Source: Anaerolineaceae bacterium (GTDB lineage Bacteria; Chloroflexota; Anaerolineae; Aggregatilineales; Phototrophicaceae). Taken from it: a stretch of DNA of 64,000 nt. The notes under the pieces were generated by a model that saw only the letters and a list, made by a program, of their open reading frames with translations, searched no databases and was not told the origin of the DNA. Of this stretch, positions 27,805 through 42,135 are shown piece after piece. Position 1 is the first letter of the stretch; the number at the start of each line of letters is the position of its first letter. Made by a program: the position numbers and the translations under genes. The stretch spans positions 1 to 64,000 of the forward strand of contig REDR01000131.1 of the NCBI GenBank assembly GCA_007693385.1, in the 5' to 3' direction.

Positions 27805-29091
27805 TCAGGCCATATCCGCGCCCAATTTTCGCATTGTACCGGCGAAGTCGGGGAACGAATCCCCGGCACATTGCGCGTCGTCGATGTGTACCGCAGATGC
27901 CGCCACCAGTCCGGCCACCGCCAGACTCATCGCCACGCGATGATCGTCGTGTGCGTGGACGTGCCCGCCGTTGATCGCCTGCCCGCCTTCGATGATGAAG
28001 CCGTCCGGCGTTTCCTCCACCGTGACGCCCAGCGCCGCCAATTCCCGCGCCATCACCGCGATGCGATCCGTCTCCTTGACGCGCAACTCCGCCGCATCAC
28101 GCACGACGGTGCGCCCTTCCGCTTGAGTCGCGGCGATCATCAATACCGGAAACTCATCAATCATTCGCACCACCATCTCACCGCCAACCTCAACGCCTTT
28201 GAGCGTACCGCCGCGTACATGCAAATCACCGACTGGCTCACCCGCTTCTTTGCCGGTGGGAATCACGGTGATGTCCGCGCCCATCCGTACCAGCACATCT
28301 AGTAGGCCGGTGCGCGTGGTGTTCAGGTTGATGTGCCGCAGGGTGATGTCGCTATCCGGCACGATGCACGCGGCGACCAACGGGAACGCGGCGGACGAAA
28401 AATCGCCGGGCACGGTCATGTCAAGCGGGCTGAGTGGCGTGGCCGATGGTGTCAGGATGACCGTGTCGCCTTCCATGCGGATGTCAGCGCCCATCGCCTT
28501 GAGCATGATCTCGGTGTGGTCGCGGGCGGGCGCGGGCTGGGTGATGCGCGTCTCGTCCTTTGCGAAAAGCGCGGCCAACAGTATCGCACTTTTGACCTGT
28601 GCGCTGGCAACCGGCAGGCGATAGTCAATGCCTTTGAGCGCCGCCGGTTGGATGGTTAGCGGGGCGCATTCGTCGCGTCCGGTGATGCCTGCGCCCATCA
28701 AGCGCAACGGCTCGATGATGCGCCGCATCGGACGGCGGCATAGTTGCTCACTGCCGGTCAGCACGGCGGGGAAGGGCTGACCGCACAGGATTCCGGCTAG
28801 TAAGCGGATGCCGGTGCCCGCGTTGACCAGATCGAGCGTTTGTGTCGGCGCGTGCGGCGTGTCGCCGTGAATGACCAGCGTATCATCCGCTTCGTCAATC
28901 TGGATGCCCAGCCCCTTGACGGCGGATAGCGTGGCGACGGTATCGCCCGCCCGCAACCAGCCGCGCACATGGCTGACTCCCCGCGCCAGCAACCCGCCGA
29001 ACATCACCGCGCGATGGCTGATGGATTTATCGCCGGGCACGTCGGTCTCGCCGCGCAATGCGCCGCCCGGTCTGGTGGTCAATGTCTGCAT
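27805..29091 (-). CDS. aroA: EPSP synthase (3-phosphoshikimate 1-carboxyvinyltransferase)
   Basis: 428 residues. VPGDKSISHRAVMFGGLL carries the Lys and Ser of the phosphate site. LVNAGTGIRLLAGIL is the PEP/glyphosate-site loop, with GTG where class I enzymes have GTA. Later motifs are LPVASAQVKSAILLAALF, PGDFSSAAF and LRVKETDRIAVMA. It joins shikimate 3-phosphate and PEP. I chose ATG 29091 because GGGAGA lies six bases upstream; ATG 29106 would overlap the tyrA stop as ATGA and remains possible. Confidence 0.95.
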   Translation of the reverse strand: MQTLTTRPGGALRGETDVPGDKSISHRAVMFGGLLARGVSHVRGWLRAGDTVATLSAVKGLGIQIDEADDTLVIHGDTPHAPTQTLDLVNAGTGIRLLAGILCGQPFPAVLTGSEQLCRRPMRRIIEPLRLMGAGITGRDECAPLTIQPAALKGIDYRLPVASAQVKSAILLAALFAKDETRITQPAPARDHTEIMLKAMGADIRMEGDTVILTPSATPLSPLDMTVPGDFSSAAFPLVAACIVPDSDITLRHINLNTTRTGLLDVLVRMGADITVIPTGKEAGEPVGDLHVRGGTLKGVEVGGEMVVRMIDEFPVLMIAATQAEGRTVVRDAAELRVKETDRIAVMARELAALGVTVEETPDGFIIEGGQAINGGHVHAHDDHRVAMSLAVAGLVAASAVHIDDAQCAGDSFPDFAGTMRKLGADMA

Positions 29092-29102
29092 GGATTCTCC
29101 CG

Positions 29103-29978
29103 TCATTTTTTGTAGTGCTTCTCCCATTTTAAGCGCGAATCGCGCTGGGGGGCTAAGGCTTCTGCGAGCCGTTCTTTATCGCCCGCGATCAGCATGGTCT
29201 CCAATATCGCCAACTGCATCCGAAAGTGTGCCAGCAGTTCCGCGATGGCCTGCGTGTTGGTGCCGGTGATGTCGCTCATCATGGTGATGTCGCTACCGGC
29301 TAGCCGCGTCATATCGCGGAAGCCGCCCGCCGCCAGCGCCCACACGCCCTCATCTTGCTGGGCTTGATGTGAGGCCGTCGCCATCAGCGCGATGCTCAAC
29401 AGATACGGTACATGGCTGATGGTGGCGACGACGCGATCATGCCGCGCCGCTTCCATCTCAACCGGCAACGCGCCCAGCGCCGCGAGTAACTCATGCGCCC
29501 GGATGCGCGTCGCCGGTGTGGTGCGCCGCGTCGGAGATAGCACAAACGGCTTGCCGCGATACAGGTCAGGGTCGCTGAACGCGATGCCGTTGCGCTCTTT
29601 GCCGGTCATCGGGTGGCCGCCGATGGCCTGCACGCCGATGGGTAGCTGTCCCATCGCTTCGCAGATGTCGGCTTTGGTACTGCCGATGTCGATAATCAGC
29701 GTATTGGAACGCAGATACGGCGCGATCTGCTTTCGCAATAGCATCAAGATCACATTGACCGGCGCGGCCAATAGCACGGTGTCGGCATCGTGGACGGCGG
29801 TCTTGAGGTCGTCGGTGGCGATGTCGATAATGCCATCGTCTAAGGCTCGCTGGCGCGTCTCGGCGTTCATATCCATGCCGATGATGCAATCGGCGTGCTG
29901 GCGCAAGCCTATCGCCAGCGAACCGCCCATCAAACCGAGTCCGATGATCGCCAATTTTTGACTTTTGAAGGCGCTCAT
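29103..29978 (-). CDS. tyrA: Prephenate dehydrogenase
   Basis: 291 residues. The NAD-binding motif is KLAIIGLGLMGGSLAIGL. DIGSTKADICEAM and GGHPMTGKERNG carry the catalytic His region, and the C-terminal helical domain holds SHVPYLLSIALM. It converts prephenate to 4-hydroxyphenylpyruvate, the precursor of Tyr. AGGAG is placed six bases before ATG 29978, so I prefer this over the track start 30020, which overlaps the aroF stop. No ACT domain is present, so regulation may lie mainly at the leader peptide. Confidence 0.93.
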   Translation of the reverse strand: MSAFKSQKLAIIGLGLMGGSLAIGLRQHADCIIGMDMNAETRQRALDDGIIDIATDDLKTAVHDADTVLLAAPVNVILMLLRKQIAPYLRSNTLIIDIGSTKADICEAMGQLPIGVQAIGGHPMTGKERNGIAFSDPDLYRGKPFVLSPTRRTTPATRIRAHELLAALGALPVEMEAARHDRVVATISHVPYLLSIALMATASHQAQQDEGVWALAAGGFRDMTRLAGSDITMMSDITGTNTQAIAELLAHFRMQLAILETMLIAGDKERLAEALAPQRDSRLKWEKHYKK

Positions 29979-30016
29979 ATTCGCTCCTGTGGTCGCGTGT
30001 GTCGTGCTCTGCTGGC

Positions 30017-31033
30017 TCATGCGTCGCGCCCGATGGCCTGCGCCACCTGTTTGACGCTCGCCATCATCGCCGCGAATTGCTCAAACGTCAGGCTCTGGCG
30101 GCCATCGCTCCACGCCTCATCGGGCGCGGAATGCACCTCGACGATCAAGCCATCCGCACCGGCGGCAACCGCGCCTAATGATACTTGCGGCACATATTCG
30201 CGCAAGCCCAAAGCATGGCTGGGGTCGGCGATGACCGGCAGATGCGTCAGCGCTTTTAACACCGCGATGGCGTTCAGGTCAAATGTATTGCGCGTGTGCT
30301 TCTCGAATGTGCGGATGCCGCGCTCGCACACCATCACCTGCGCGTTGCCCTGCGCCAGCACGTACTCCGCCGCCATCAGCAAATCCTCGATGGTGCTACT
30401 CATGCCGCGTTTGAGCAGTACCGGATGCTGACTCTGGCCGACGGCGGTCAGCAGGGTGAAGTTCTGCATGTTGCGTGCGCCGACCTGCAACACATCGGCA
30501 TAGTCACAGACCAGTGGCACCAGATTAGCGTCCATGATCTCGGTCACGATGGGCAGGCCGGTTTGTTCACGCGCTTCGGCCAGCCATTTCAACGCCTGCT
30601 CACCGTGCCCCTGAAAGCTGTAGGGCGATGTACGCGGCTTGTACGCTCCGCCACGTAACGCCGTCGCGCCTGCCTCTTTGATGGCGTGGGCGATCTCTAG
30701 CAGGTTCTCGCGGCTTTCCACCGAACACGGCCCGGCGATGACCAGCACGTTATCCCCGCCCATCGGCTTACCGTTCAACGGGATGATGGAATCTCGCGGG
30801 TGCATCTGGCGGCTGGCTAGCTGGTACGGCACGGTGACGCGGGCGACACGCGCCACGCCGGGCAACGCTTCGTACTCCGCCTGCTGAAATGCGCCGCGCC
30901 CCTCGCCGACGATGCCGACCAGCGTGTTATCGTCGCCGTCGGCCAGATGCGCGGCGTAGCCGTCCGCTTCGATCTTGGCGATAACCTCCGCCAGTTGTTT
31001 GGCGCTGGCGCCGCGTTTCATCACAACAATCAT
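30017..31033 (-). CDS. aroF: DAHP synthase, type I-beta with N-terminal ferredoxin-like domain
   Basis: 338 residues. Residues 1-75 ([26 protein letters not shown] onward) form the ferredoxin-like regulatory domain known from the Thermotoga enzyme, where Phe and Tyr inhibit. The barrel starts near [15 protein letters not shown] and carries [34 protein letters not shown] and IADPSHALG. It condenses PEP and erythrose 4-phosphate, the entry step of the pathway. GAGGGA precedes the ATG. It follows aroH by 14 bp. Confidence 0.95.
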
Positions 31034-31737: not shown

Positions 31738-32834
31738 CTTTTTGGATCGTCCGGCGTTGCGATGATGCGCCCTAGCCAGCCGTCTACATCTTCTGGCGTC
31801 AACTTGTCGGCCACGCGCACGGCAGGCTCTAGCCCCTCAAAGATGGACGTGATCCCGAACGGGCGTGTATAGGGCGCATCACCGAGTAAGACGACGCGGA
31901 CGCCATCGAAGCGCGGGATGTCCGCCGGAAAGCCCTCCGGCCACAGCCACGTATCGGCGTTGTCGCCGACCTCGACCACGCCTTCCGCGTTGAGCGCCCG
32001 CCAATTCGCATAATGAAACGCGAATACGTGCGGCGTCGCCTGATTGTACTGGTTATATTGCCGCGCCGCCTCGACGGTCTGCGGGCGCGGACGGTCACCG
32101 TCCAGCCAACCGGCGGACTCATCGCCGATGAGCGCTTCTTCCAGCAGGACGAAAAGCTGATGATTACCGGCGATGCCCTCAATCTGTACGCGATAACCGC
32201 GCCGATAATCGGGGTGAATCACGATCAATTCTTCGTCGTCCAGCACCGCCAGCAGTTGCGATAGCCAGTGGATCATATCGTGATGCAACGGGAAGCGCCG
32301 CAGACGCGAAGCCATGCGCCCCTCGTCGTTGGCGGCGCGGCGGGCGCGTTTACTGCGCGAGATCATCGCCACCGCCGGACGGCAAAATATCTCCATCGCG
32401 GAGAAAGCGTTAGCCTGCACGCTCATCGTGCGGGCGACGCCCGCGCCGTAACGGTCAATCGCTTCGGCTTCGGGCACGTCATCAGCGCGGGCGCGTTCCA
32501 GACAGGCAGAGACGAATTGCGACGCCTCGCCCAGCGTTTCGCCCAGCCGCGTGATGATGGCATGGACGGCGATATAGGGGTGTGCGCCTTGCTCGACCAA
32601 CGCGCCACACGCCGCCGATACCATCGCGGAGCGCATCGGCGCGGCGGCGAGAATGGTATCCACCAATCGCCCGACGCCCTGAGAGCGCGTCTCGTGGTCT
32701 ACGAATTCGCCAGCGTTGACCACCAATCCGGCGACCTCACGCAGATCATCGAATGTCATCGGGCGACCATCCGCCATGCGCGTGATGACCGCCTCCACCG
32801 CTTCGTTGAATTGCGTTATCTCCGGCGTTGTCAT
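31734..32834 (-). CDS. Unknown protein at the end of the trp operon
   Basis: 366 residues, no signal peptide or membrane segment. I do not recognise the family. The N-terminal third is helical and acidic (MTTPEITQFNEAVEAVITRMADG; AAPMRSAMVSAACGALVEQGAHPYIAVHAI). A basic patch (SRSKRARRAANDEGRMASRLRRF) follows, then a beta-rich half with LLAVLDDEELIVIHPDYRRGYRVQIEGI and HVFAFHYANWRALN. It is coupled to trpA by a 4-bp overlap, so it is co-translated with the trp genes. The aro promoter -35 lies in its stop codon. A role in aromatic metabolism is only suggested by position. Confidence 0.7.
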   Translation of the reverse strand: MTTPEITQFNEAVEAVITRMADGRPMTFDDLREVAGLVVNAGEFVDHETRSQGVGRLVDTILAAAPMRSAMVSAACGALVEQGAHPYIAVHAIITRLGETLGEASQFVSACLERARADDVPEAEAIDRYGAGVARTMSVQANAFSAMEIFCRPAVAMISRSKRARRAANDEGRMASRLRRFPLHHDMIHWLSQLLAVLDDEELIVIHPDYRRGYRVQIEGIAGNHQLFVLLEEALIGDESAGWLDGDRPRPQTVEAARQYNQYNQATPHVFAFHYANWRALNAEGVVEVGDNADTWLWPEGFPADIPRFDGVRVVLLGDAPYTRPFGITSIFEGLEPAVRVADKLTPEDVDGWLGRIIATPDDPKS

Positions 32835-33628
32835 GTGTTCAGCGCGTCCCGTAGTGATTTCGCCAGATCATGCACGGCGGCTCTGCTTTCGCCCGCCGCC
32901 CGCACCAGCGCACTACCGACGATGAAGCCATTGACCAGCCCGTTCATCATGCGGGCGTGTTCCGGCTTGCTGATGCCGAACCCCAGCACAAGCGGGGCGT
33001 CAGTCTGGGCGCGTAGATCGGCGATGAACGCCTGCAAATCGGACGGCAAGCTCTGGCGCTCGCCGGTGATGCCGGTCAGCGATAGTACGTAGATGAAGCC
33101 CGTCGCCCGTTGCGCCACCAGTGCGACGCGGCTGTGGTCGCTGGTCGGCGCGAGGAAGAACACCAGCGCCATATTTTCCTGCTCACAGACCGCAAACATC
33201 GGCGCTTCTTCCGGCGGCAGGTCGGGGATGATGAAGCCATCCGCGCCGGCCGCTTTCGCCGCCAGCACGAAGCGCTCCACGCCGTAATTGATGATCGGGT
33301 TCAGATAGCTGAACATCAAAATCGGCTGATCGATGCCGCGCTCGCGCAGTGTCCGCACCGCGTCCAGCGCGTGCTGAATGGTGGTGCCATTTTCCAGCGC
33401 GACTTGCGAAGCCTGCTGGATCGTCGGCCCGTCAGCTAGCGGATCGCTGAACGGGATGCCGATCTCGAAGCCGTCAGCGCCAGTGGCCGCCATCGCTTCG
33501 ATAGCGGCCAGTGAATCCTCATACGTGGGATAGCCTACCGGAAAGAAGGGCAGGAAAGCCGCCCGCCCCTCCGCTTCCGTTCGGGCGAACATCGCCGCGA
33601 TTGCATCTAGTCCCCTTTGTGATCGCAC
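32831..33628 (-). CDS. trpA: Tryptophan synthase alpha subunit
   Basis: 265 residues. It cleaves indole-3-glycerol phosphate; indole passes to TrpB. The catalytic Glu and Asp are in GFEIGIPFSDPLADGPTIQ, and FIIPDLPPEEA, LVFFLAPTSDHSR and GFIYVLSLTGITG are standard. The start is a GTG that overlaps the TAG of the upstream small gene by one base. It is separated from trpB by an alpha/beta hydrolase gene and a small unknown gene, which is an uncommon trp order. Confidence 0.96.
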   Translation of the reverse strand: MRSQRGLDAIAAMFARTEAEGRAAFLPFFPVGYPTYEDSLAAIEAMAATGADGFEIGIPFSDPLADGPTIQQASQVALENGTTIQHALDAVRTLRERGIDQPILMFSYLNPIINYGVERFVLAAKAAGADGFIIPDLPPEEAPMFAVCEQENMALVFFLAPTSDHSRVALVAQRATGFIYVLSLTGITGERQSLPSDLQAFIADLRAQTDAPLVLGFGISKPEHARMMNGLVNGFIVGSALVRAAGESRAAVHDLAKSLRDALNT

Positions 33629-34066: not shown

Positions 34067-34948
34067 TTATGTGGCGCGGCGATAGTCTTCAACCAGCGCC
34101 CCCAGTATCGCCTCCCAATGCTCGAAGAAGGCGAAATGCCCGCCGCCCTCCATGAAGTACGGTGTGGTGTTGGGCAATACTTTCTCATAATATTGCCCCA
34201 TCTGTAGCGGCGTTAATGTGTCATATTGCCAGTACCACAGATGAACCGGCGCGGTGATCGCGTTGAGTGGAATCGCCCATTTACCAACGATCATCTTGGC
34301 CTCATGTACCCAGCCGCGCACGCCGTCGCGCACCGCCTCCCCGCGCCAACCGCGCACCTGTTCGGCGTATTGCGGCTGTTGCAGGATGGCTTGATCGTAC
34401 TCATTCGCCCGCAGAAGCACGTTATGCCATGCGCGGGTCGGATTGCGCGATTCGGAGCGCATCTGCAACGACATCAGCAGGCGCAAAAGCGGGCGCGGCC
34501 AGCGCGATGTCTGGTAGGCGATGCGATAATCTTCGGCCACATTATCCAGCCCGCCCGGACGATCTAGCGGCGCGACGCCACTGATGATCGCGCCGACTTT
34601 GACGCGCTCCCGCAGGGCGTAGGCCGTCGCGGTCACGTAGGGCGCACCCGCCGAAATACCCATCACGCCGAAATGCGCGATCTTCAGCGCGTCGGCCAGT
34701 TGCGCGATGTCGTCGCCCATGTCCAGATAGCGCCGCTTCTTCTGGAAATCCGACAGGCCATAGCCCGGACGATCCGGCGTGATGAGCTTGACGCCCAGCC
34801 TGTCCGCGATGTTCTCGTCGGGGTGGCGCATGTAGCGCGATCCGGGGTTGCCGTGAAACAGAAAGACGGGCACGCCGTCCGCCGCGCCGTGTACGGTATA
34901 CGCCAGCGTCCGCCCGTCTTTCAGCGTCAATGTGTCCTCATGATTCAC
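34067..34948 (-). CDS. Alpha/beta hydrolase
   Basis: 293 residues. [12 protein letters not shown] supplies the oxyanion hole, [11 protein letters not shown] the nucleophile elbow Ser, YDTLTP the acid and GGGHFAFFE the catalytic His, so the triad is complete. The fold is like haloalkane dehalogenase/esterase relatives; the substrate is unknown. It overlaps the trpB stop by 4 bp (ATGA), so it is translated with the trp operon. There is no signal peptide. Confidence 0.88.
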
Positions 34949-36180
34949 GGATTCAGCACCTCCATCACGGTGTCGAGGTCTTTATCGCCGCGCCCGGATA
35001 GATTCACCAGAATGATGCTATCCGGTGGCATGGTCGGCGCTCGCTTGATGACTTCGGCGATGGCGTGGGCACTCTCCAGCGCGGGGATGATGCCTTCGGT
35101 CTGGCTGAGCGTCTGGAATGCTGATAGCGTCTCGGAGTCGGTGGCGTAGGTGTAATGGGCGCGTTCCATCTGGCGCAGGTAGGCATGTTCCGGGCCGACG
35201 GACGCATAATCTAATCCGGCGCTGATGCTGTGCGTGTTCATGATGTTGCCGTCGCTGGTCTGCATCACATAAGAGCGCGTGCCCTGCAACACGCCGGGAC
35301 GACTGACATCGAGATCGGCGAAGCGTGCCGCGTGTTCGCCGCCGATGATGCCGCGTCCGCCCGCCTCCACGCCGATCAAGTCGATCTGCTCATCGTCGCG
35401 GAAAGCATGAAATAGCCCGATGGCGTTACTGCCGCCGCCGACGCAGGCGATACAGACATCCGGCAGGCGTCCGGCCTGTGCCACGATTTGCCGCCGCGCT
35501 TCGTGGCCGATGATGCTCTGGAAGTCGCGCACCATGCGCGGGTAGGGGTGCGGCCCCAGCGCCGAGCCGAGCAGGTAGAACGTGTCGCGCACGTTGGTCA
35601 CCCAGTCGCGTATCGCCTCATTGATCGCGTCTTTCAGCGTTTTACTGCCGCTTTCCACCGCGATGACCTCCGAGCCGAGTAAGCGCATCCGAAACACGTT
35701 GGGCTGTTGCCGCTTGATGTCGGTACTGCCCATGTAGACGTGGCAATCCAGCCCCAACAAAGCCGCCGCCGTCGCCGACGCGACGCCGTGCTGTCCCGCG
35801 CCGGTCTCCGCGATGACGCGCTGTTTGCCCATGCGCTTCGCCAGCAACGCCTGACCGAGCGCATTATTGATCTTGTGTGCGCCGGTATGGGCGAGGTCTT
35901 CGCGCTTGAGGTAAATCTGCGCCCCACCTAGCATTTCGCTGAGGCGTTTGGCGTGCGTTAACGGCGTCTCGCGCCCGACATACGTGCTTTGCAGATTTGC
36001 CAATTCCGCCTGAAATTCTGGATCGGCCATCGCGCCCAGATACGCCGCCTCTAATTCGTTGAGTGCAGGTACTAAGGTCTCCGGTACGAAGCGCCCGCCG
36101 AATTCACCGAAGTAGCCGCGCTCGTCCGGCACGTTGGCGGTGTTGATGTCGATGTATAAATTTCCGTCCGTCGTCGTCAT
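34945..36180 (-). CDS. trpB: Tryptophan synthase beta subunit
   Basis: 411 residues. The PLP lysine is in [15 protein letters not shown], and the [18 protein letters not shown] and [11 protein letters not shown] phosphate loops are intact. It joins indole with Ser to make Trp. It is the TrpB1 type, which pairs with TrpA. AAGGATG precedes the ATG. It lies 65 bp after trpF. Confidence 0.96.
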
Positions 36181-36245: not shown

Positions 36246-36917
36246 TTAATCTCCCGCCGCATTTTTGGCCGCCGCCACGAATGCGCGTATTTTGTCATGA
36301 TCTTTGACGCCCGCCGTGCCGGATTCGACGCCGCTCGCGGTATCCACGCCCCACGGACGCAAGCCGCGCACGCGCTCCGCGACGTTGTGCGCGTTCAAGC
36401 CACCGGCCAGCATGTAGCGCGGTACCCGTTCGCCCACCGCCAGCCCGATCTCCGCGCTGATCGTCTCGCCGGTGCCGCCACGCAAGCGCGGATGGTACGC
36501 ATCGACCAGCACGGCGGGCAATCCGGCGGACTCTGGCGGAAAAGTCGGCGCGTAGTACGTCAGATCGTCCAGCGCCGCGTTCACGTCCGGCGGCTGGATC
36601 GCCTTGAACGCCGTTCCGCGCAGTTCCTTGAGCATATCGCGGGATTCGTCGCCGTGCAGTTGTGCGCCGCTCAGCCCGACCTGTCCCATGATCGCCGAGA
36701 TGCGGCTGACCGGCTCGTTGACGAATACGCCGATTAAGCGCGGGGTATCTGCGCCCGCCGCATCACGGAGCGCCGCGCATAGCGCCGTCGCGGACTCCGG
36801 CGTGATGTAGCGCGGACTGCCGCTATAGAAGTTCAGCCCGATCATATCCGCGCCCGCCTCCGTCGCCGCCAGCGCATCGGCTAGCCGCGTCACACCGCAA
36901 ATCTTGACCTGTACCAT
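36246..36917 (-). CDS. trpF: Phosphoribosylanthranilate isomerase
   Basis: 223 residues from MVQVKICGVTR, whose Cys is the catalytic base. GLNFYSGSPRYI, LSGAQLHGDES, VLVDAYHP and the phosphate-binding LAGGLNAHNV and VDTASGVES motifs follow. It isomerises PRA to CdRP. GGAGA lies 9 bases before ATG 36917; the track ATG at 36926 is only one base from that site, so I prefer the shorter form. Confidence 0.93.
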   Translation of the reverse strand: MVQVKICGVTRLADALAATEAGADMIGLNFYSGSPRYITPESATALCAALRDAAGADTPRLIGVFVNEPVSRISAIMGQVGLSGAQLHGDESRDMLKELRGTAFKAIQPPDVNAALDDLTYYAPTFPPESAGLPAVLVDAYHPRLRGGTGETISAEIGLAVGERVPRYMLAGGLNAHNVAERVRGLRPWGVDTASGVESGTAGVKDHDKIRAFVAAAKNAAGD

Positions 36918-36935
36918 ATCGCTCATTCTCCGCGC

Positions 36936-37757
36936 CTATGTTGTCTGCTCGCCGCGTGTTTGACTGCTGAATGTCCGCACGGCGGCCGGGATGTCGGGCG
37001 CTGTGACTAGCCCTTCGCCGACCAGTACCGCCCGTGCGCCTAGCTCGCCCATGCGTACCACATCAGCGCCGGACTTGATGCCGCTTTCCGCCACCAGTAC
37101 CACCTCATCGGGCAGGCCATCAGCCAGTCGCGCCGTCGTGTTCAAATCGACATCGAACGTCTTGAGATCGCGATTATTCACGCCGATCAACGTCGCGCCG
37201 ATCTTCAAAGCGCGTTCTAATTCCGCTTCGTTGTGGACTTCGACCAGCGCCGCCATGTCTAGCTCGGTGATGGTCGCGTGCAGTTCGGCCAGTTGTGTAT
37301 CATCCAGCGCGGCGACGATCAGCAGAACCGCGTCGGCATCGGCGGAACGCGCCTCAAACACCTGATACGGGTCGATGATGAAATCCTTACGCAGTACCGG
37401 CAACCGCGTCCGCCCTCTGACGTTGGTCAGGTCATCCAGATGGCCGCGAAAGAACGTCTCGTCGGTCAATACGCTGATCGCCGATGCGCCGTTAGCCTCA
37501 TACGTGGTCGCCAGTCGCACCGCGTCGAAGTCGTCCGTCAGCACGCCTTTGCTGGGCGACGCCTGCTTGACTTCTGCGATCAGCGCGACGTGCGGCTTGA
37601 CCAGCGCGGCGGCGAAATCACGCGGGGTACACGCCCGCCGCGCCGCGCCCATCATCTGATTCAGTGGCGCACGCCCCTGACGTTCGCGCACCTCTTCGAC
37701 CTTCTTCGCCAGAATTTTATCTAATATGGTATCCGTCTTGACATAAGCCACCGGCAT
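36936..37757 (-). CDS. trpC: Indole-3-glycerol phosphate synthase
   Basis: 273 residues. VALIAEVKQASPSKG holds the catalytic Glu and Lys. VLRKDFIIDPYQV, LIGVNNRDLKTF and VAESGIKSGADV complete the barrel. It closes the indole ring from CdRP. The ATG at 37757 is very close to GGGAG; the GTG at 37751 would have better spacing and is an alternative. It is a separate protein, not fused to TrpF as in enterics. Confidence 0.95.
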   Translation of the reverse strand: MPVAYVKTDTILDKILAKKVEEVRERQGRAPLNQMMGAARRACTPRDFAAALVKPHVALIAEVKQASPSKGVLTDDFDAVRLATTYEANGASAISVLTDETFFRGHLDDLTNVRGRTRLPVLRKDFIIDPYQVFEARSADADAVLLIVAALDDTQLAELHATITELDMAALVEVHNEAELERALKIGATLIGVNNRDLKTFDVDLNTTARLADGLPDEVVLVAESGIKSGADVVRMGELGARAVLVGEGLVTAPDIPAAVRTFSSQTRGEQTT

Positions 37758-37789: not shown

Positions 37790-38815
37790 CTAGAATTGCT
37801 GGCTAAATTCGATCAGCGCGTCCAGTTTCGCCAGCGCCGCGCCACTGTCGATGATTTCCCGCGCCTGCTTGATGCCTTCCGCGATGTCGTCCGCTTTGCC
37901 GGCCACGTTCAGCGCCGCGCCCGCGTTGAGTATCACGACATCGCGCTTGGCGTCTTTGACTTCGCCGCGCAGGATGCCGCGCAGGATGGCGGCATTTGTC
38001 GGCGCGTCATCGCCCAGTAGCTGGTTGATATTCGCGCCCGCGAAGCCGTAATCAAGCGGGTCAAGCTCGAATGAAGTCACCACGCCGTCATCATAATAGC
38101 TGATGCGATTCGGCCCGGTGGTGGTCAATTCATCCAGCCCGCCGTAGCCACTGACTACCATCGCGCTTTTAGCGCCGAGTTCACCCAATACGTTCGCCAG
38201 CAAGTCGGTCAAGTCCGGCGCGAATACGCCCATCAATTGCCGCCGCGCCCCCGCCGGATTGGTCAACGGGCCGAGTATGTTGAAGATCGTCCGCACGCCC
38301 ATCTCGCGGCGCGGTCCGATGGCGTGGCGCATGGCGGGGTGTAGCTTCTGCGCGAACAGAAAGCCGATGCCGACTTCATCGACGCACGCGCCGACTTGCT
38401 CCGGCGTTAAATCCAGCTTCAAGCCGAGTTCGCCCAGCACATCCGCGCTACCGCATTTGCTACTGGCGGCGCGGTTGCCGTGCTTGGCGACGGGAACGCC
38501 CGCGCCCGCCGCCACAAAAGCCACCGTCGTGCTGATGTTGAATGTGCCGCTACGATCACCGCCGGTGCCGCACGTATCCAGCAAATTCACGCCCGCGTGC
38601 CGCGTCGGGACTTTTTCGGCATTGGCACGCATCGCCATCGCGCTTCCGGTTATTTCGTCCTGCGTTTCACCCTTCATGCGCAAGCCCATCAGGTAACTGC
38701 CGATCTGCGCGTCGGTAGCTCCGCCCTGCATGATCTGGTTCATCACGCCTTCCGCTTCGCTGGCTTGCAGGTGGCCGAAGCGCCCGATGAGGTCTATCGC
38801 GTTTTTGATGTCCAT
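37790..38815 (-). CDS. trpD: Anthranilate phosphoribosyltransferase
   Basis: 341 residues. The PRPP site LDTCGTGGDRSGTFNISTT, then VAKHGNRAASSKCGSADVLGELG and the Mg/anthranilate region FNILGPLTNPA are intact. It transfers phosphoribose to anthranilate. AAAGGCG lies upstream of the ATG. It lies 28 bp after trpG; there is no trpG fusion. Confidence 0.96.
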   Translation of the reverse strand: MDIKNAIDLIGRFGHLQASEAEGVMNQIMQGGATDAQIGSYLMGLRMKGETQDEITGSAMAMRANAEKVPTRHAGVNLLDTCGTGGDRSGTFNISTTVAFVAAGAGVPVAKHGNRAASSKCGSADVLGELGLKLDLTPEQVGACVDEVGIGFLFAQKLHPAMRHAIGPRREMGVRTIFNILGPLTNPAGARRQLMGVFAPDLTDLLANVLGELGAKSAMVVSGYGGLDELTTTGPNRISYYDDGVVTSFELDPLDYGFAGANINQLLGDDAPTNAAILRGILRGEVKDAKRDVVILNAGAALNVAGKADDIAEGIKQAREIIDSGAALAKLDALIEFSQQF

Positions 38816-38843: not shown

Positions 38844-39422
38844 TTATACCGCCAAAAACTGATTTTCCATGAAGTTCTTCAGGATGCGCGGCCCGTAGCG
38901 CGTCAGGATGCTCTCCGGATGGAATTGCACGCCGATCACCGGATGCGATTCGTGCCGCAACGCCATGATGTCGCCTTCTTCGGTGAACGCGATGATCTTC
39001 AACGGGTGCGGCATCGTATCCTCTTCGACGATCAAGCTATGGTAGCGCGTGGCCTCAAACGGGCTGGGGATGCCGGTGAATAGCGGATCGTGTTTGTGAT
39101 ACACCATGCTGGTTTTGCCGTGCATCAGCTTTCCGGCTCTCGCCACGATGCCGCCGTAAGCCTGCCCGATGCATTGATGCCCCAGACACACACCAAGAAT
39201 CGGCGTGCTTTCGCCTAGCTCGCGGATGATGTCCAGCGAGATACCGCCGTCATCCGGCGTGCCCGGCCCGGGCGATATGACGATGTGTGACGGCTGATAA
39301 GCCCGCACATCGTCTAGCGTGATGTGATCGTTGCGGACGACGTGCAAATCCGCGCCCATTTCGCCCATCTGTTGCACGAGGTTATAGGTGAAACTATCGT
39401 AATTATCAATCACCAGAATCAT
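38844..39422 (-). CDS. trpG: Anthranilate/aminodeoxychorismate synthase glutamine amidotransferase
   Basis: 192 residues. The triad is visible: Cys in ILGVCLGHQCIGQAYGG, and His and Glu in VIGVQFHPESIL. The oxyanion motif is VISPGPGTPDDGG. It feeds ammonia to TrpE. No second copy is in the window, so it may also serve PabB for folate. It overlaps the altered phosphatase gene by 4 bp (ATGA), which places that gene firmly in the operon. Confidence 0.95.
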   Translation of the reverse strand: MILVIDNYDSFTYNLVQQMGEMGADLHVVRNDHITLDDVRAYQPSHIVISPGPGTPDDGGISLDIIRELGESTPILGVCLGHQCIGQAYGGIVARAGKLMHGKTSMVYHKHDPLFTGIPSPFEATRYHSLIVEEDTMPHPLKIIAFTEEGDIMALRHESHPVIGVQFHPESILTRYGPRILKNFMENQFLAV

Positions 39423-40090
39423 GATGCGTCGTCTCCTCTGACATCGGGCGGCATGTGACGGCTGACCAGCCCTTCCAGATGTGTTAGATCATTAGCGCGT
39501 ACCAGACTCCAGCCGTCGCCGTCGCGCATGATCGTCGTTACCGATGAGTTATCAAAAGACATCGCCGATAGGTCAATGTCGGGCACCAGTTGCTTGAGCA
39601 TCAAGCGGGTGGTGAACGTATGCGACAGGATGCCGACGGTTTCGTTTTTCTCGCTTTCCGCCTCATAGCGTGCCAGCAGTTCCGCTAAGAACTCTGCGAC
39701 CCGTTGCCGCACTTCTACCATCGACTCGCCGCCGGGGATTTTGTAATTCTCTGGATCGGCCAGCAATTGTGCGTATTCGTCATGATACCAGCCGTGAATT
39801 TCCGGCACGGTCAACCCTTGAAAGTACCCGATGGAGCGTTCACGCAGACGCTGATCGTATATCGGTTCAAAGCCGAGTTTCTCCGCTAGAATTTGGGCAC
39901 TCTGACGGGCGCGGCGGTTGTCACTGCTGTACAGGGCGGCTAGTCCGATGTGGCGGATGAAGTTCGCCAGCCGGTACATCTGCTGTTGGCCGAGTTCGTT
40001 GAGGGGCGCGGCCACCCAGCCCTGCCAGCGTCCGGCTAGATTCCAGTCTGTTTCGCCCGAACGGATGAACACCAAGCGTTTTAACGGCAT
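39419..40090 (-). CDS. Histidine phosphatase superfamily protein with altered catalytic motif
   Basis: 223 residues from MPLKRLVFIRSGETDWN. The fold is phosphoglycerate mutase-like: GRWQGWVAAPLNELG, YSSDNRRARQSAQIL, LRERSIGYFQGL and the C-terminal ILSHTFTTRLML. In the RHG signature the nucleophile His is replaced by Ser (RSGE; codon TCG in the sequence). The second His is kept. Ordinary phosphohistidine chemistry should be blocked, so a binding or regulatory role, or an unusual mechanism, is likely. It sits between trpE and trpG and overlaps trpG by 4 bp. A TTG at 40144 is a possible upstream start. Confidence 0.82.
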   Translation of the reverse strand: MPLKRLVFIRSGETDWNLAGRWQGWVAAPLNELGQQQMYRLANFIRHIGLAALYSSDNRRARQSAQILAEKLGFEPIYDQRLRERSIGYFQGLTVPEIHGWYHDEYAQLLADPENYKIPGGESMVEVRQRVAEFLAELLARYEAESEKNETVGILSHTFTTRLMLKQLVPDIDLSAMSFDNSSVTTIMRDGDGWSLVRANDLTHLEGLVSRHMPPDVRGDDAS

Positions 40091-40153
40091 TTTGTCTAAA
40101 AACTCCTCTTTAATAAATCGAACAACGCGCCAATCATAAACCAAATCCGCCGC

Positions 40154-41674
40154 CTACATCAGACCGCGTTCGGCGTACTCGATAGCGACGGCCAGCGCTC
40201 GCGCTTTGTTGACCGTTTCTTCGTACTCTTTGGCCGGGTCGCTATCGGCGACGATGCCCGCGCCCGCCTGTAGATAGATGCGATCACCGCGCATGACCAG
40301 CGCGCGAATGGTGATGCAGGTATCCATCGAGCCATCATAGCTGAAATAGCCCACCGCGCCGCCATACGTGCCGCGCCGCACGCCTTCTAGCTCCTCGATG
40401 ATCTCCATAGCGCGGACTTTCGGCGCTCCGCTCAGCGTACCCGCCGGAAACGTGGCGCGGAACAGGTCGAAGCCGTCGATGTTTTCGCGCACTTGCCCGT
40501 CTACCTGACTGACGATGTGCATCACATGCGAGTATAGCTCAACATTCATCATGCTCGAAACTTTGACCGTGCCATACTCACTGACGCGCCCGATGTCGTT
40601 TCGCGCCAGATCAATCAGCATGACGTGTTCGGCGCGTTCTTTCGGATCAGCGAGCAGGTCTTCGGCTAGTGCGCGGTCTTCGGCGTCGGTTTCGCCGCGT
40701 TTGCGCGTACCCGCGATGGGGCGCATGGACGCGATGCCGTCTTCCAGCCGTACCATCATCTCCGGCGATGCGCCGAGCAAGGTCATGCCGTCGCCGAAGT
40801 TCAGATAGAACATATAAGGCGATGGGTTCAGCGCCCGCACAGCGCGGTAGATGGTCAACGGGTGGGCGTTGGTGCGCCGTGTGAAGCGTTGCGATAGCAC
40901 GATCTGGAAGGCGTCGCCCGCCGCGATGTACTCTTTGGCCTGCCGAACGTTGGTCTCGAATTTTTCGCGGGTGATGTTGGACTGCATCGGCTCATCAAGC
41001 GGATTGTTGGCGTATTCCACCGGCGGCAACGGCTTGCCCAGCGCGGCCACAATCTGATCGACGCGGCGCACCGCGTCACGATAGGCGCTGTCGGGGTCGC
41101 CTTGATTGTGCGCGTTCGCCATCACGATTAATTCGTGCTTGGCGTGGTCAAAGATGACCAGCGTATCCGGCAACATGAAGGCCGCCGTCGGCATATCCAG
41201 ATCATCCTCTGCGGTCTGCGGCAGGCGCTCGAAGTAGCGCACGATGTCATAGCCGACATAGCCCACCGCGCCGCCGACCAGACGCGGCAACTTCGGCAAG
41301 CTGACCGGCGTCACGCGGTTTAACTCCGCCTTGAGCGCGTGCAACGGGTCTTCGTCTTCGGCTAGCTGGCGCGTCGTGGTCTGGCCGTCGGTGGTGTGGT
41401 GCATGGTATCGCCCTTGAAGGTGATGACCGCCTGCGGATTGACGCCGAGAAACGAATACCGCCCGACGTGTTCGCCGCCTTCCACGCTTTCCAGCAAGAA
41501 CGACACATCGCTGACTTGCGATAGCTTCATGTAGACCGATACCGGCGTTTCCAGATCGGCCAGCAGTCGCCGGTAGACCGGCACCAGATCGCCCTGTTTG
41601 AATAACTCGCCGATCTCATCGCGTGATGGCGTGATGTCGGTGCGGATTCGTCCGCTTGATTGTGTGTTCATCAT
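40154..41674 (-). CDS. trpE: Anthranilate synthase component I
   Basis: 506 residues. The Trp feedback site region SFLLESVEGGEHVGRYSF is present. The chorismate-binding domain has GDAFQIVLSQRF, IAGTRKRG, LIDLARNDIGRV and TLSGAPKVRAMEIIEELE. It makes anthranilate with TrpG. The track ORF (start 42052) reads through the leader RNA; the true start is ATG 41674 or 41671, after the terminator at 41740-41707. It is the first gene of the trp operon and under T-box control. Confidence 0.95.
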   Translation of the reverse strand: MMNTQSSGRIRTDITPSRDEIGELFKQGDLVPVYRRLLADLETPVSVYMKLSQVSDVSFLLESVEGGEHVGRYSFLGVNPQAVITFKGDTMHHTTDGQTTTRQLAEDEDPLHALKAELNRVTPVSLPKLPRLVGGAVGYVGYDIVRYFERLPQTAEDDLDMPTAAFMLPDTLVIFDHAKHELIVMANAHNQGDPDSAYRDAVRRVDQIVAALGKPLPPVEYANNPLDEPMQSNITREKFETNVRQAKEYIAAGDAFQIVLSQRFTRRTNAHPLTIYRAVRALNPSPYMFYLNFGDGMTLLGASPEMMVRLEDGIASMRPIAGTRKRGETDAEDRALAEDLLADPKERAEHVMLIDLARNDIGRVSEYGTVKVSSMMNVELYSHVMHIVSQVDGQVRENIDGFDLFRATFPAGTLSGAPKVRAMEIIEELEGVRRGTYGGAVGYFSYDGSMDTCITIRALVMRGDRIYLQAGAGIVADSDPAKEYEETVNKARALAVAIEYAERGLM

Positions 41675-41701
41675 CGTTAATATCTCATCCCCTATCCCTG
41701 A

Positions 41702-42012
41702 AAAACAAAAAACCCTCTCATCCACACAAGGACGAGAAGGCGCTCCCGCGTTGCCACCTTGTTTCATGCACGCATAATCTGCGGACATGCACTCAGTAGG
41801 TACATGCGAACATATACCCTGCGCCATGATAACGGAGCGCTCGCCGTCGCCAGCTAATGAGCGATACATGATGATCGCCTTTCGCCTGCGCAACTCCCCG
41901 GCCCATTCAGTCCGTCCGTATGTATCGCCTTTCCAGCCACCGGCGACTCTCTGGACATCGTGTGCGAACTTACTATTCCGGTTCACAGTCTTTAGCACGT
42001 ATTCAGCTAGAT
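41702..42012 (-). promoter_or_regulatory. Trp-specific T-box leader upstream of trpE
   Basis: The minus-strand leader has the main T-box parts in order. AGAGAG and a distal Stem I hairpin TCGCC/GGCGA enclose GGTGGCTGGAAA (fits the GGUG..GA loop). The specifier region CTGAATGGGCC has codon TGG (41905-41903) for Trp. The T-box AAGGTGGCAACGCGG lies at 41760-41746, whose UGGC bulge would pair with the GCCA end of tRNA-Trp (discriminator G). The leader ends in an intrinsic terminator. Uncharged tRNA-Trp should stabilise the antiterminator and allow trp transcription. The 5' boundary is approximate. Confidence 0.9.
41707..41740 (-). terminator. T-box controlled terminator before trpE
   Basis: CCTTCTCGTCC and GGATGAGAGG pair around a short TTGTGT loop with one bulge and one G-T, then GTTTTTTG. 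It begins just after the T-box sequence, as expected for the competing terminator helix. Confidence 0.88.
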
Positions 42013-42018
42013 GCTGAA

Positions 42019-42048
42019 ATGTTAACTTGAAAGGCGGCCATCTGTCAA
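42019..42048 (-). promoter_or_regulatory. Promoter of the trp operon
   Basis: TTGACA and TAACAT are separated by 18 bases on the minus strand, just before the T-box leader. The -35 is perfect and the -10 moderate. Confidence 0.65.
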
Positions 42049-42135
42049 GCATTCCGTCGGATTTGATTCTGCGCTTTGTCGATCCAAGCGTTCGGTATTC
42101 GGCAGTATTGCGGCCATTATCCGGCGGCCATTTGA

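Follow-up and report, generated by a model that had tools for sequence, protein, structure and literature searches.

In the 64 kb window (the whole stretch of DNA analysed), a trp operon and its leader occupy the minus strand, and the positions of the individual features are collected in Table 1. Downstream of a T-box leader RNA, the genes follow in the order trpE, a histidine-phosphatase-family gene, trpG, trpD, trpC, trpF, trpB, an alpha/beta hydrolase gene, and an open reading frame that we take, from its translation, to be trpA, all in the same orientation. Genes resembling those of the chorismate pathway adjoin the operon downstream on the same strand (27805-31033); from their translations, these presumably encode DAHP synthase, prephenate dehydrogenase, and EPSP synthase (aroA).

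Table 1. Coordinates of the leader, the trp operon, and the other T-boxes of the host (window positions unless a locus is named).
Feature	Position	Strand	Evidence
sigma-70-type promoter: -35 TTGACA (42048-42043), -10 TAACAT (42024-42019)	42019..42048	-	motif scan
T-box leader RNA (RF00230), Stem I to antiterminator	41725..41995	-	cmscan
AGAGAG motif (AG bulge) of Stem I	41947..41952	-	RF00230 alignment
specifier codon UGG (Trp)	41903..41905	-	RF00230 alignment; GAA directly 5'
antiterminator: CAAGG/CCUUG helix and GCGGG-containing helix around the bulge	41727..41761	-	RF00230 alignment, RNA folding
T-box sequence AAGGUGGCAACGCGG	41760-41746	-	
antiterminator bulge UGGCAAC; UGGC (41756-41753) pairs with the GCCA end of tRNA-Trp	41750..41756	-	
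intrinsic terminator: 12-pair stem, then U tract	41707..41741	-	motif scan, folding
trpE (ATG 41674 or 41671)	40154..41674	-	Pfam PF04715, PF00425; in-frame starts
histidine-phosphatase-family gene	39419-40144	-	
trpG	38844..39422	-	Pfam GATase
trpD	37790..38815	-	Pfam Glycos_transf_3
trpC	36936..37757	-	Pfam IGPS
trpF	36246..36926	-	Pfam PRAI
trpB	34945..36180	-	Pfam PALP
alpha/beta hydrolase gene	34067-34948	-	
probable trpA	32831..33628	-	translation
valS T-box, specifier GUC	L001 1501-1739		
pheST T-box, specifier UUC	L003 1501-1776		

The leader matches the Rfam T-box family (RF00230) over the whole model (positions 1-219) with 110.5 bits and an E-value of 1.5e-23 in cmscan, above the gathering score of 93, and is one of only two Rfam matches above gathering in the window, the other being a tRNA-Arg. 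The preliminary description had proposed a Trp T-box leader before trpE and named this covariance search as the check; the significant, full-length match, the UGG specifier, and the trp operon downstream bear the proposal out. Each of the motifs it listed (the TGG specifier, AGAGAG, distal loop, T-box sequence, and terminator) lies where it was placed, on the minus strand. Both the AG bulge and the distal loop of Stem I are present, and in the alignment of related elements (A1) the AGAGA of Stem I is invariant, with the sixth base differing in two sequences.

The specifier codon, UGG, suits the regulated gene, trpE, and is embedded in a GAAUGG that recurs in all 11 aligned sequences and in 20 of the 21 elements examined. 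Because GAAUGG is invariant, conservation alone cannot choose the register, and a T-box reading another codon within it (AAU, Asn) has to be weighed. The other two T-boxes of the host, before valS and pheST, have specifiers that match their own genes, and the pheST codon stands directly 3' of GAA, in the same register as the GAA/UGG of the trpE element, which makes an AAU or AUG reading unlikely. The acceptor end of the tRNA provides a further comparison. In the host tRNA-Trp (L118; identified with ARAGORN), the acceptor stem AGGGGUA/UGCCCCU is followed by G73, the pairing partner of the C in the UGGC bulge of the window element; the valS and pheST T-boxes both carry UGGU, and their tRNAs have A73. 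The match between this C and G73 had been put forward as a check independent of the specifier: the pairing holds, but as a check it is weaker than stated, since tRNA-Asn, -Gln, -Ser, and some -Arg of the host also have G73. With UGGC in the bulge, AUG (Met, A73) and GGG (Gly, U73) are thus ruled out as shifted readings, and because tRNA-Asn shares G73, the discriminator alone cannot exclude AAU. Of the 21 elements, 17 have C as the variable bulge base and four have U, a base found at this position in 46% of the Trp T-boxes in TBDB (PMC7778990). Given the register of the pheST element and the identity of the regulated gene, we consider it very improbable that the element reads another codon; the same holds for action on translation rather than transcription, against which stands the conserved intrinsic terminator with its U tract.

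The predicted terminator stem (41741-41712) has a folding energy of -19.9 kcal/mol (z -5.1 relative to shuffled sequences), the terminator ends ∼33 nt 5' of trpE, and an equivalent stem is found in the 12 relatives that were folded. The segment CCUUCUCGUCC is common to the predicted antiterminator and the predicted terminator, such that the two folds are predicted to be mutually exclusive, as in class I elements. When the antiterminator is folded alone, an alternative structure (-10.8 kcal/mol) comes out slightly ahead of the canonical one (-9.9 kcal/mol), whose formation in this folding model would therefore depend on tRNA binding. In one relative (L037), the CAAGG/CCUUG helix of the antiterminator is replaced by UGAGG/CCUCA, and two-sided changes occur in 24 of 57 predicted pairs (RNAalifold, 11 sequences).

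The bulge of the antiterminator departs from the full UGGNACC consensus, reading UGGCAAC, one base off UGGCACC. The consensus is a conserved motif and not a requirement for membership in the T-box family. Among 29 other T-boxes of the host's family (L004-L032), AAC occurs once, in L019, against 28 cases of ACC; the L019 element (L019/L155) is the trpE T-box of another genus, scores 119.5 bits, and has the same divergent neighbor gene as the window. Its recurrence in another genus makes a sequencing error an unlikely source of AAC. Other genomes with GGUGGYAACRCGG were tested as carriers of the AAC variant, and none has a T-box at that sequence except G003. The prevalence of ACC in nearly all other T-boxes compared could be read as a sign that the window element is decaying and that its altered bulge no longer antiterminates; we judge this very unlikely, given that the well-scoring trpE T-box of the other genus has the same AAC and that the promoter, Stem I, terminator, and operon in the window are intact. 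It is conceivable but doubtful that UGGCAAC, shared by trpE T-boxes from two genera, has been selected because it alters antiterminator strength or acceptor-end recognition in the Trp T-boxes of the host's family.

Upstream of the T-box is a sigma-70-type promoter. Of 16 related loci, 15 have a perfect TTGACA and a -10 box of TAnnnT or TATAAT-like form, mostly 16-22 nt 5' of the T-box and amid flanking sequence that has diverged. This promoter bears on the start of trpE, for which a mechanical call gives a 632-aa open reading frame (40154-42052) that runs from ATG 42052 through the leader; the preliminary description had rightly cautioned that such a call would hide the element. The window promoter begins 4 nt downstream of ATG 42052, and this codon therefore cannot start a protein made from the promoter's transcript, while the in-frame ATGs at 41674 and 41671 lie 3' of the terminator. 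That the region 41725-41995 encodes an N-terminal extension of TrpE (632 residues in all) and resembles a T-box only incidentally is extremely improbable: the frame is open from 42052 into trpE with no stop, but the conserved promoter (beginning at 42048) leaves that ATG outside the transcript, the same frame in relatives is stopped 11-57 codons before similarity to TrpE begins, the Pfam TrpE domain begins only at residue 166, and chance does not account for an RF00230 match with an E-value of 1.5e-23. The 632-aa open reading frame is an artifact, the start of trpE being ATG 41674 or 41671. A reading of the open frame as a leader peptide or an extended protein was likewise rejected, as the frame is closed in relatives. 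Recognition of the T-box corrects both the regulatory and the start-site annotation of the trp operon and keeps a gene caller from lengthening TrpE by ∼126 residues through the leader RNA.

The covariance match, the codon register, G73, the terminator and antiterminator, and the operon agree with one another, and relatives conserve each of these, which supports the reading of specificity: the trp operon is almost certainly under the control of a tRNA-Trp-specific T-box riboswitch of class I (transcriptional). Points against this are the UGGCAAC bulge, in a motif that is otherwise highly conserved, the slightly greater stability of the alternative antiterminator fold, and the distance between T-box and trpE at L045. 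In the proposed mechanism, the transcript would begin ∼7 nt past the -10 box (last base 42019), and the UGG in Stem I would meet the tRNA-Trp anticodon, CCA. If this tRNA were uncharged, its GCCA end would pair with UGGC and stabilize the antiterminator, allowing RNA polymerase to read into trpE; if it were charged, the terminator (41741-41707) would form and transcription would stop. The sequence, structure, and cognate tRNA are described here directly, and the response to the tRNA would be that expected from the established mechanism of the T-box family.

The window element truly belongs to this family, as an ordinary representative of it. Relative to a class I transcriptional T-box of RF00230 with Trp specificity, it shares the whole model, the UGG specifier, AG bulge, distal loop, UGGN bulge, antiterminator and terminator, and trpE downstream, and differs by UGGCAAC in place of UGGCACC. 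T-boxes are common in the host's Chloroflexota group: each of the 61 genomes sampled from the host's family has RF00230 matches, mostly 2-5 copies. The 20 nearest trpE loci from other Chloroflexota all have an upstream match (13 above gathering and seven below it, with E ≤ 2.2e-10), and at one locus (L045) the T-box lies ∼1.5 kb upstream of trpE. The trpE T-boxes of Anaerolineae MAGs (L033-L043) align with the window in promoter, GAAUGG, antiterminator, and terminator; unlike the window, all have ACC in the bulge, and two of those aligned have UGGU rather than UGGC. The Chloroflexi are among the phyla holding T-boxes (PMC3766115), and T-boxes before trpE were reported from this phylum, in Dehalococcoides, in 2008 (Wels et al., 2008; PMC2494555), so that the window element is a further example of something known. 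Dehalococcoides likewise has a tryptophan-biosynthesis T-box before trpE, but belongs to a different Chloroflexota lineage; its other reported elements are one for an ile-tRNA-ligase and another trp element, trpB-like (PMC2494555), as opposed to the valS and pheST elements of the host. These observations strengthen the case that, in this part of the Chloroflexota, trpE is generally preceded by a Trp T-box.
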